DNA of 64,000 bases, from the NCBI GenBank assembly GCA_002708715.1, contig PAPB01000039.1:1-64000 (forward strand), in the 5' to 3' direction. Position 1 is the first letter of the stretch. Every line of letters begins with the position of its first letter. Source of the stretch: Fidelibacterota bacterium. Its GTDB lineage: Bacteria > Fidelibacterota > Marinisomatia > Marinisomatales > UBA1611. The translations under genes were made by a program, and so were the position numbers. The notes beneath the pieces were generated by a model, which saw only the letters and a list, made by a program, of their open reading frames with translations, made no database searches and had not been told where the DNA came from. Below, in pieces: positions 43,671 through 61,728 of this stretch.

Positions 43671-44324
43671 ATGATTGAATTTCAAAACGTATCATATACT
43701 CATAGCAAGGGCTATGGTGTCAATAATCTTAGTATGTCTATTGAAGATGGTGGTTTTACATTTTTAATTGGACCAACTGGTTCAGGTAAGACTACTCTTA
43801 TGCGTCTAATCTATTTTGACCTTTTTCCTAATTCAGGGATTGTTAAAGTCAATGGATTATCCTCTGAAACAATAAATAGGAAAACCATTGCCATGGCTAG
43901 AAGAAATATTGGGATGGTTTTTCAAGATTATAAATTATTAAGTGATAGGAATTTATATGAAAATATAGCTTTGCCTTTACATGTTCTAGGTTTCCCAATA
44001 AGAGATATATCCTCTAGAGTTGATGAAGCGATTGAGCTTGTTGGCTTAGAAGGTAAAGAGAATCATTTTCCAGATGAACTTTCTGGTGGAGAGCAACAAC
44101 GCGCATCTCTAGCTAGAGCAATTATAAAAGAACCAGATGTGATTTTAGCAGATGAGCCAACAGGTAATTTAGATCCTGTAGCTTCTTTTGAACTTGTTAG
44201 ATTATTAGAGACTATACATGAGACTGGAACAACTATTTTAATGGCATCTCATAATTATAATCTTATAAAAGGCAGAGGTAGGCCAATATTTGAACTAAAA
44301 AATGGTATTTTAAGAGTAAGATGA
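43671..44324 (+). CDS. ftsE: Cell division ATP-binding protein FtsE
   Basis: The 217-residue ABC ATPase has Walker A (GPTGSGKTT), the Q-loop (MVFQDYKLL), signature (LSGGEQQR), Walker B (VILADEPTGNLD) and switch His (MASHN). With FtsX it forms the divisome complex that activates peptidoglycan hydrolases from the membrane. The ftsX start overlaps its stop. No ribosome-binding site is clear before the ATG. Confidence 0.95.
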   Translation: MIEFQNVSYTHSKGYGVNNLSMSIEDGGFTFLIGPTGSGKTTLMRLIYFDLFPNSGIVKVNGLSSETINRKTIAMARRNIGMVFQDYKLLSDRNLYENIALPLHVLGFPIRDISSRVDEAIELVGLEGKENHFPDELSGGEQQRASLARAIIKEPDVILADEPTGNLDPVASFELVRLLETIHETGTTILMASHNYNLIKGRGRPIFELKNGILRVR

Positions 44325-45196
44325 TGGATAAATTTTTTTATTTAATTATTGAGGGAATCAAAAACACCTTACGCCACAAGATTACTGCGTTTACCGCTAT
44401 TTTTTCTCTTTTTATATCCCTTTATATAATTGGTGTAATTATAATAGCTGGAGATAACACTCATAAAATACTACAGTATTTGCGTTCAAAATATAAAATA
44501 GAAGTATTTTTTAAAGAGAATATAACCAATGAAGAAGCTATTGGTTTAATCCATAAAATAAAAAAAATCAAAGGTATCAAAAATGCAACAATTATTGAAA
44601 AAGCTGATGCTGTACGTATTTTTAATGATCAATTTGGAGAGAATATTATTGATCTATTAGGATATAATCCTTTACCCGCAAGTACAGTGATTAATGTTGA
44701 TAGGAATGTGCGAGAATCGATAAAAATTGAACCAATCATACGTGAAATACGAGCTATAAAAGAGGTTGATGAAATAAGGTATCAAGGAAATCTTATAAAT
44801 AAAATTGAAAGAAATTATACGAAATTGGTTAACTATCTTCCATATTTTTCTGGATCTATAATTATCATTATCGGCTTAATTATTTATAGTATGATTAAAA
44901 TATCTATTTATTCAAGGCGAGAAACAATTAAATCGTTAGAGCTAATTGGTGCAACAAGGATGTTTATAAAATTGCCTTTTATTTTTGAAGGTATTTTTAT
45001 TTGCTTTATCTCTGTTGCATTAGTTTTTCCATCTTTATTTATTACTACAAAAGGAATTAATTATTTAATAAGTAATTTCACTTCGTTTAGCATCAAAGCT
45101 AACTTTGATCCTTATATATTCATATGGTTATTAGTATTGGTATTACTTATATCAATTATAGCAAGTTTTAGAGCGACATCAAGTTTCCTGAAATAA
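44321..45196 (+). CDS. ftsX: Cell division protein FtsX
   Basis: The 291-residue membrane protein has the FtsX topology: a first span (IFSLFISLYIIGVIIIAG), a periplasmic domain of about 120 residues and three further spans. RRETIKSLELIGATRMFIKLP matches the conserved cytoplasmic coupling region of FtsX/MacB-type permeases. It partners the FtsE ATPase encoded just before it. The stop is followed by an 89-base gap before grpE. Confidence 0.93.
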   Translation: MMDKFFYLIIEGIKNTLRHKITAFTAIFSLFISLYIIGVIIIAGDNTHKILQYLRSKYKIEVFFKENITNEEAIGLIHKIKKIKGIKNATIIEKADAVRIFNDQFGENIIDLLGYNPLPASTVINVDRNVRESIKIEPIIREIRAIKEVDEIRYQGNLINKIERNYTKLVNYLPYFSGSIIIIIGLIIYSMIKISIYSRRETIKSLELIGATRMFIKLPFIFEGIFICFISVALVFPSLFITTKGINYLISNFTSFSIKANFDPYIFIWLLVLVLLISIIASFRATSSFLK

Positions 45197-60370: not shown

Positions 60371-60376
60371 TTTTTA

Positions 60377-60524
60377 TTTAGGCAGAAGGGATTTAACCGA
60401 GGTATCGGAGGTATCTAAGGAGATGCGTCCCTTCTACCTAAATATGGTATTCTATACTGCATACCTATCATCACCTATTAATACGTATTACTAAATTGAA
60501 GTACTTGTGATGTGGGTCACAAGT
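60377..60524. ncRNA. Structured intergenic element A (candidate RNA with two hairpins)
   Basis: The stem GGCAGAAGGGA (60381-60391) pairs with TCCCTTCTACC (60428-60438) over ten of eleven positions. A second hairpin GGTAT (60446-60450)/ATACC (60461-60465) has the loop TCTATACTGC. A second copy of the whole block lies at 61492-61635, and compensatory changes between the two support both hairpins. The only mismatch in the first stem, C against A on this strand, becomes a U-G pair if the opposite strand is transcribed. The transcribed strand is not decided by sequence. A CRP-like palindrome closes the block. Confidence 0.6.
60503..60524. promoter_or_regulatory. CRP-like palindrome (TGTGA-N6-TCACA), element A
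   Basis: ACTTGTGA (60503-60510) and TCACAAGT (60517-60524) are perfect inverted repeats separated by six bases, which contains the CRP/FNR-superfamily consensus TGTGA-N6-TCACA. A TATAAT occurs at 60532-60537 before the gene at 60591. On the other strand, the 60 bases that follow lead into the hairpins. Which promoter it controls is open, and no CRP-family gene is in the window. Confidence 0.6.
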
Positions 60525-60590
60525 TTTTAATTATAATTAAAAATAAGTATATATATTTACATAATAATTTTTTTAAAAATAGGTGAATGT

Positions 60591-61250
60591 ATGAAATATT
60601 TTAGTTGTTTATTAATGCTCCATGTTCTGCTTTTCAATTTTTTGACTGCTCAATATTCAGGTAATGGTAATCATGGTGACCCCTTATCTGAAACCGCTTT
60701 GTATCCTGTACCAAAAGAAATGACTTTTGAAGAGTATAAGGATATGAACAGGAGGATGTCTCAAGCACTTTTATGGTCGTCAATTCCTATACCTGGAATT
60801 ACACATTACTATGCTGGCGAAATAAAAAAATCTAAAAAACTGTTTTATATTGGCATGGGTGGACTTGCCTGTATTATTGTAGGATCATTTTCAATGGAAG
60901 AAGGTGAATGGCCAGAATATAATCAAAACCATATTATATTTAATCAAGGAAAGGACAATGAAAAACGTTTTGAAAAAATTCCAGTTGGTATGGAAGGAGA
61001 AGTAGTGCATTACAAACTCCAAGAGATTCGTAAAGAACAAAACGGTAATGGTGGAGGCCTAATTTTTGCAGGTTTAGCTATTGTTTTAGGCGATTTTATT
61101 TATGATAGAGTGAAAGGTTTACAAGTAATAGAGGATAAAAGAGATAAAGTGCGTTTTAAATATGGCCAAAAATTAAACTTATCAATAAAACCTAGTTACA
61201 ACTCCTTACAAAATAAGTTGGGCTTTGGCTTAAAATTCTATTTTGGTTAA
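60591..61250 (+). CDS. Secreted or membrane protein of unknown function
   Basis: The ATG follows an AGGTGAA site. The 219-residue protein has a signal peptide ending near NFLTAQ. The section SSIPIPGITHYYAGEIKKSKKLFYIGMGGL recalls the P-G-x-x-(Q/H)-Y-Y pattern of DUF5683-like proteins, followed by a hydrophobic hairpin. A second hydrophobic segment (GGGLIFAGLAIVLGDFIY) and a beta-rich end terminating in LGFGLKFYFG follow. Its upstream region carries structured element A and a CRP-like site. Confidence 0.6.
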   Translation: MKYFSCLLMLHVLLFNFLTAQYSGNGNHGDPLSETALYPVPKEMTFEEYKDMNRRMSQALLWSSIPIPGITHYYAGEIKKSKKLFYIGMGGLACIIVGSFSMEEGEWPEYNQNHIIFNQGKDNEKRFEKIPVGMEGEVVHYKLQEIRKEQNGNGGGLIFAGLAIVLGDFIYDRVKGLQVIEDKRDKVRFKYGQKLNLSIKPSYNSLQNKLGFGLKFYFG

Positions 61251-61315
61251 TATGAGAATTAATAGTTGGATTTTACTTTCTAATATATTCATTTAGATAG
61301 GGGTAATAAGAATCG

Positions 61316-61453
61316 CTAATTATATAACATACCTATCCTTATGCATTTGATGAAGCGCTCTAGTATCCTTCGTTTCACATACTCTTTTCCCTGATTCCTT
61401 GTTAGTAATAAGATAGCCTGTTGCCTAATGATGGCTTCTTGTTTTTCACTCAT
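61316..61453 (-). CDS. Small 45-residue ORF with strong ribosome-binding site
   Basis: On the minus strand an ATG at 61453 is preceded by AAGGAGAT, a near-perfect ribosome-binding site in a genome where such sites are rare. The ORF encodes 45 residues, starting MSEKQEAIIRQQAILLL and rich in Arg/Lys (YVKRRILERF), then a TAG at 61316-61318. It looks like a small basic helical protein. The upstream side (towards higher coordinates) holds element B, which would form its 5' leader if transcribed on this strand. No homologue is recognised. Confidence 0.5.
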   Translation of the reverse strand: MSEKQEAIIRQQAILLLTRNQGKEYVKRRILERFIKCIRIGMLYN

Positions 61454-61491
61454 AATATCTCCTTAATTATTACAACTCCTTATAATAATAA

Positions 61492-61635
61492 CTTAGGCAG
61501 AGGGGGTGACTGATGTACACAACTGAGGTAAGAAGATAAACCCCCTCTACCCAAATATGGTCTTCTATACTAAAAGACCAAGTATCACTAAATAAAACGT
61601 ATAATACCGAAATAGTACTCGTGATACAGATCACA
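61492..61635. ncRNA. Structured intergenic element B (second copy)
   Basis: The first stem GGCAGAGGGGGT (61496-61507) pairs with ACCCCCTCTACC (61540-61551), with one C-A mismatch on this strand that is U-G on the other. The second hairpin GGTCTT (61559-61564)/AAGACC (61574-61579) has the loop CTATACTAA. Compared with element A, pairs change from A-T to G-C (twice) and A-T to C-G (once) while pairing is kept. Conserved single-stranded elements include GAGGTA in the first loop and CTATACT in the second. It lies between the small minus-strand ORF and the gene at 61729. Confidence 0.6.
61620..61635. promoter_or_regulatory. CRP-like palindrome, element B
   Basis: CGTGA (61620-61624), six bases, TCACA (61631-61635): a one-base departure from TGTGA-N6-TCACA at the same place as in element A. 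The core GTGAT-ACAG-ATCAC is a perfect palindrome. TATAAT at 61639-61644 follows, about 85 bases before the next + strand gene. Confidence 0.5.
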
Positions 61636-61728
61636 TCATATAATTAAGATATTGAATTATATTGATTTGGTAGATTTATATTGTTATTTATTTATAATAT
61701 TTAAAGCTTATGGAATTCAGATATTGGT

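Follow-up and report, generated by a model that had tools for sequence, protein, structure and literature searches.

Two intergenic loci in the window, the whole 64,000-nucleotide stretch of DNA analyzed here, almost certainly belong to a conserved family of structured RNAs encoded on the minus strand. The hosts of this family are Candidatus Neomarinimicrobiota (Marinimicrobia, SAR406). We consider it likely that its members are small RNAs (sRNAs) activated by CRP and independent of Hfq, in which a CU-rich, anti-Shine-Dalgarno-like loop (CUUACCUC) would pair with ribosome-binding sites. The basis of this proposal is the homology of the copies, their structure, strand, conserved operator, and distribution, and the CRP homologue and cyclases of the hosts.

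Two homologous copies in the window

The original prediction described a repeat of about 145 bases at 60377-60524 and 61492-61635, and both copies were found there. Global alignment of the minus strand (60374-60526 against 61489-61642) gave 104 identical columns out of 158, with few gaps. The local alignment score was 60; in 2,000 dinucleotide shuffles, scores averaged 17.1 and never exceeded 29, so the homology exceeds what shuffling produces. The three compensatory pairs proposed between the copies are present when the DNA is read on the minus strand: the long stem changes twice from A-U to G-C, and the small hairpin changes once from A-U to C-G. The loop CTATACT (AGTATAG on the minus strand) is conserved as described; GAGGTA occurs in both loops, but its strict register does not hold in copy 1. 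The shared CRP-like terminal palindrome is also present, exact in copy 1 and with one mismatch in copy 2 (Table 1). R2, a covariance model restricted to the long hairpin, scored 55.6 bits (E = 1.8e-14) on copy 1 and 72.2 bits (E = 5.9e-20) on copy 2, values that arise by construction since R2 was built from all 15 members of the family.

Table 1. Features of the two copies and the adjoining open reading frame (ORF)
Copy	Feature	Position	Strand	Basis
1	CRP-like operator TGTGACCCACATCACA	60506..60521	-	Exact TGTGA-N6-TCACA; near-constant distance across 15 members
1	Probable -10 region (conserved CGTWTTA block)	60477..60484	-	Spacing and sequence conserved in type A
1	Small hairpin GGTAT-GCAGTATAGA-ATACC, conserved loop AGUAUAG	60446..60465	-	Alignments A4, A6
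1	Long hairpin, core GGUAGAAGGGA/UCCCUUCUGCC, CU-rich loop AUCUCCUUAGAUACCUCCGAUACCUCG	60377..60442	-	Model R2 and covariation
2	CRP-like operator TGTGATCTGTATCACG	61620..61635	-	One mismatch to palindrome; family conservation
2	Probable -10 region	61591..61598	-	Conserved block, CRP-site distance as in copy 1
2	Small hairpin GGTCTT-TTAGTATAG-AAGACC	61559..61579	-	Folding and alignment
2	Long hairpin GGUAGAGGGGGU/ACCCCCUCUGCC, loop AUCUUCUUACCUC at 61525-61537	61492..61555	-	Model R2 and covariation
2	45-codon ORF MSEKQEAIIRQQAILLLTRNQGKEYVKRRILERFIKCIRIGMLYN downstream of copy 2	61316..61453	-	Shine-Dalgarno AAGGAG at 61459-61464

The family is found in three genera of Marinimicrobia

Blastn with copy 2 retrieved copies from genomes of the same genus and the same taxonomic family. 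Blastn with copy 1 alone missed the other copies in the genome of the window, which made a covariance model necessary. The search of relatives with such a model, which the original prediction had proposed, recovered further copies and covariation. With R2 and a model of the hairpins that leaves out the promoter (R1), we identified 15 convincing members in nine genomes, which comprise every sampled genome of three genera, three per genus. Neither the remaining 24 genomes of the taxonomic family nor the others among the approximately 245 genomes of the phylum yielded a confirmed member with these models. Each carrier genome has one to three copies; that of the window has three, the two described above and a third, c3, at C35:121085-121180.

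The members fall into three types. Type A (n = 10) has a common small hairpin, GGUCUU-GCAGUAUAG-AAGACU; type B (n = 4) has a different 5' part; and type C (n = 1, G043:C48) is intermediate. Weak model matches in other genera and families were rejected, as they lacked both the CRP site and the loop motif and many apparently lay in coding sequence. Three pattern matches in IMG/VR, which might have pointed to a viral origin, were attributed to chance, as were matches in Bacteroides and Neobacillus.

A different element, the dispersed intergenic repeat AAGCCCCACATTCGTGGGGTTTTTTGTTTGTGGGATGATGGGTAGATTT, which consists of a terminator-like hairpin and a conserved tail, was noticed in several relatives (L117 at 1480, 3462, 4763, 12907, and other positions; L116, L127, L128, L131, and L132). 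The window contains a weak match to it, at 44316-44351.

Structure and strand of the RNA

The 13-pair stem is strongly supported by covariation. Across the 15 members, 92.8% of its cells are paired, seven of the 13 pairs show double changes (both sides), and 14 cells are compensatory; none of 500 shuffles reached the stem's values for pairing, double changes, or compensatory cells. When the stem partner was slid by one to three columns, pairing fell to 44 to 53%. The claim that the repeat is an RNA structure under selection and not a decayed repeat was thus strengthened by additional copies in relatives, many more compensatory changes, and a CRP-like site in all 15 members. The loop of the long hairpin is CU-rich, with the core CUUACCUC in nine or 10 of the 15 members and an N within the core in one further member; members without the core carry related anti-Shine-Dalgarno-like strings in the loop. 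Most of the 15 copies have no obvious U-tract terminator behind the long hairpin: a U-tract lies near the hairpin only in the type A copy of G043 and farther off in G005A and G023A.

The original prediction described the plus strand; our evidence instead assigns the RNA to the minus strand. In the long stem, C/A mismatches on the plus strand are G·U pairs at the identical positions on the minus strand. When the 15 members were read on the minus strand, the non-Watson-Crick cells of the stem comprised 19 G·U and two A·C, counts that are partly nonindependent and are spread over several columns and lineages. Copies 1 and 2 folded better than shuffles on both strands, with z scores of -4.5 and -4.3 for the minus strand and -3.5 and -2.4 for the plus strand. 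For the ten type A members, consensus folding gave -19.85 kcal/mol with a covariation term of -1.89 for the minus strand, compared to -12.28 and -0.04 for the plus strand. We rejected a plus-strand RNA on the basis of the wobble asymmetry and the consensus folding. We assigned the RNA to the minus strand because the plus-strand mismatches become G·U pairs there and because the CRP-like palindrome then lies upstream of the hairpins, as expected of a promoter operator.

A conserved CRP-like operator precedes the hairpins

The pattern TGTGA-N6-TCA was found in all 15 members, with its center 71 to 79 nucleotides (nt) from the long stem, and in none of 10 subthreshold model matches. The site is conserved in this way even though the covariance model left out the promoter region. 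The pattern as such is not rare in the window (three matches with one mismatch allowed, compared with 1.8 expected), so it is the conservation that constitutes the evidence for an operator. In most type A members, the CRP site is followed by a CGTWTTA-like block at constant spacing and then by the small hairpin. This layout would fit a class II CRP promoter with a start about 41 to 42 nt from the operator center, which would place the RNA starts near 60472 (copy 1) and 61586 (copy 2). Judging from these sequence features, each locus is quite probably a CRP-controlled RNA gene.

The genome of the window encodes one clear CRP-family protein above the Pfam cutoff (C28), and matches in the PDB include E. 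coli CAP and other regulators of the CRP/FNR family. The CRP homologues of all three genera have an E. coli-like SRETVxR recognition helix and an RSA phosphate-binding motif, and all lack N-terminal iron-sulfur cysteines. A PF13545 search found no CRP homologue in the carrier metagenome-assembled genomes G001 and G015, both of which are incomplete. Class III cyclases are present in all nine carrier genomes. The carriers, 1.4 to 2.5 Mb in size, have 5 to 12 class III nucleotide cyclase matches each and, in most cases, one clear CRP homologue. Copy c3 is divergent from the gene for a 428-residue class III adenylate cyclase (G000:C35:119150-121180, L031), and the CRP-like site between them lies 93 nt from the cyclase start codon and 54 nt from the first hairpin of the RNA. 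An orthologous cyclase is located 6 to 13 kb from the RNA in G001, G002, and G043; because each genome has so many cyclases, these more distant cases could be due to chance.

If the conserved unit were only a CRP operator and promoter serving divergent protein genes, the hairpins would be terminators or incidental. The operators of copies 1 and 2 and G000:C35 do lie in divergent intergenic regions, 78 to 101 nt from an ATG on the opposite strand. The divergent genes are unrelated, though, and the hairpins stand to one side of the operator with constant spacing, covary strongly, have conserved loops, and in most copies are without U-tracts. We regard this alternative as very improbable and favor an RNA gene under CRP control.

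Genomic context argues against a mobile element

The presence of several copies per genome could reflect a small MITE-like or integrase-borne mobile element with hairpins that act as DNA structures for transposition. The copies in G001 and G002 lie inside an integrase element flanked by tRNA-Pro repeats, and the homology between their flanks extends no farther than the hairpin's 3' end. Nevertheless, copy number is low, at one to three per genome, and orthologous copies are embedded in long collinear surroundings: 9.8 kb at 95% in L122/L129 and 14.8 kb in L121/L130 within genera, and 8.5 kb between genera, where one type A locus of genus g4 occupies the position of a type B locus of genus g10. 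The wobble pairs that favor one strand and the conserved promoter-like operator also speak against transposition, and no target-site duplications were seen around the copies. We judge a mobile element very improbable and retain the interpretation of a conserved RNA gene. Integron attC sites and CRISPR-like arrays, suggested by the two-copy layout, were rejected because the copies are orthologous stand-alone loci that flank no cassettes.

The RNA copies beside a tyrosine recombinase gene occur in two genomes of the same genus, at G002:C1 (L116 11924-19501 and L127 1-1409) and G001:C106 (L117 6700-9430). The recombinase element, measured in G002, is about 8.4 kb long, is bounded by 45-bp repeats of the tRNA-Pro 3' end, and contains primase and helicase remnants.

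A proposed role in translational control

We infer that the loci are transcribed, that CRP activates rather than represses them, and that the RNA acts by base pairing with targets. In the mechanism we propose, a CRP-family regulator with cAMP would bind TGTGA-N6-TCACA, centered about 41.5 nt before the start in class II geometry, and activate the sRNA gene on the minus strand. CRP at promoters of such geometry is able to repress too. The resulting RNA would be about 95 to 110 nt long, with the small hairpin and its AGUAUAG loop first and then the long hairpin, whose stem, kept by compensatory change, would display the CU-rich loop with the CUUACCUC core. This anti-Shine-Dalgarno-like loop would probably pair with the ribosome-binding sites of mRNA targets independently of Hfq and ProQ, and pairing would lower translation at high cAMP. 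Hfq was found in none of the 33 genomes of the taxonomic family, with the control positive in five well-known genomes, and ProQ was found in none of the nine carrier genomes.

The predicted RNA thus probably adjusts protein production when cAMP rises. That it does so through the CU-rich loop and ribosome-binding sites is a tentative suggestion, for which our doubt slightly outweighs our confidence. As a crude test for targets, we looked for GAGGTAAG just before ATG; it was no more frequent there than in a reversed control or in genomes lacking the RNA, and this lack of enrichment leaves the target hypothesis without independent support. Many of the 33 genomes of the taxonomic family, carriers and noncarriers of the RNA alike, contain one or two occurrences of a separate string, GAGGTAAGGGGGATG, which probably marks one conserved gene. 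A broader scenario, which we consider unlikely, is that these lineage-specific, multicopy RNAs mimicking an anti-Shine-Dalgarno sequence form a joint cAMP-driven brake on translation, with an integrase element carrying some members and another member paired with an adenylate cyclase that makes the signal and so closes the loop.

Relation to known RNAs

The original prediction recognized no known RNA family, in agreement with our finding that neither the window nor ten members had an Rfam 15 match above the gathering score; the window also had no match at a permissive threshold. Among the papers searched, none was found to describe an sRNA of Marinimicrobia or SAR406. Because of these results, and because the RNAs nearest in kind are CRP controlled, the family is new, and its kind, the CRP-controlled sRNA, is already known.

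Marinimicrobia are an abundant uncultured marine phylum, and the usual RNA chaperones were not found in the genomes examined. An RNA family supported by covariation and accompanied by an identifiable regulator offers a first handle on posttranscriptional control in this phylum and is a good candidate for a new Rfam entry.

Gram-positive RNAs such as RNAIII and RsaE/RoxS have a C/U-rich hairpin loop complementary to the Shine-Dalgarno sequence, and Hfq is largely dispensable for them. They share no sequence relation with the Marinimicrobia family and answer to different regulators; the core here is CUUACCUC. CyaR of Escherichia coli is cited as a CRP-activated sRNA in PMC8672173. As is proposed for the Marinimicrobia loci, it is a short intergenic RNA gene activated by CRP-cAMP and thought to act at translation initiation regions. 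Unlike CyaR, with which it has no sequence or Rfam match, the family described here has several paralogues, most copies are without a clear intrinsic terminator, and the host has no detectable Hfq or ProQ. VcdRP, Spot 42, and AzuCR are RNAs repressed by CRP, some with dual function (PMC8672173), and their promoters likewise contain a CRP site. In VcdRP, a C-rich pairing element is combined with a small protein, an arrangement that copy 2 may share. These RNAs are from Proteobacteria and are unrelated in sequence, whereas here two of 15 copies precede a small ORF. The nearest example from an FCB-group relative without obvious Hfq and ProQ is GibS of Bacteroides thetaiotaomicron, a base-pairing sRNA that acts at start-codon regions and is tied to carbon metabolism (PMC7366714). 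GibS is largely unstructured at its seed, whereas the Marinimicrobia family is strongly hairpinned with seed-like loops.

A small protein gene downstream of copy 2

A homologue of the 45-codon ORF downstream of copy 2 (60% identity) follows the family member at G043:C48, so that a small ORF comes after the RNA in two of the 15 members, in two genera. These two RNAs run into the small protein gene and may be leaders or dual-function RNAs. Extended to the whole family, this would make the RNA a cis-acting 5' leader, riboswitch- or attenuator-like, in which the hairpin controls the downstream gene on the same strand. Both small ORFs have good Shine-Dalgarno sequences, and pairing is possible between the copy 2 loop (UCUUCUUA) and the 45-codon gene's Shine-Dalgarno region (UAAGGAGA). 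In addition, the RNA lies just upstream of a same-strand tRNA-Arg(tct) in two g4 genomes (L122 and L129, near 743-970) and of a same-strand tmRNA in two g10 genomes (L121 9620-10359 and L130 8437-9125). Most other copies, however, have no consistent downstream gene on the same strand, and what they have in common is the RNA. Copy 1, whose end lies 7 nt from a convergent gene's 3' end, has no such ORF, which makes a stand-alone RNA the common denominator. We therefore consider a general leader function quite unlikely and favor a stand-alone sRNA.

Further homologues of the 45-codon ORF occur without the RNA in G001, G007, and G017. Relatives of this 42- to 45-amino-acid protein adjoin genes for acyl-CoA dehydrogenase, thiolase, and TetR in beta-oxidation operons (L059, L060, and L061), and in two genomes a ACCGACYRGTCGGT palindrome precedes the gene.
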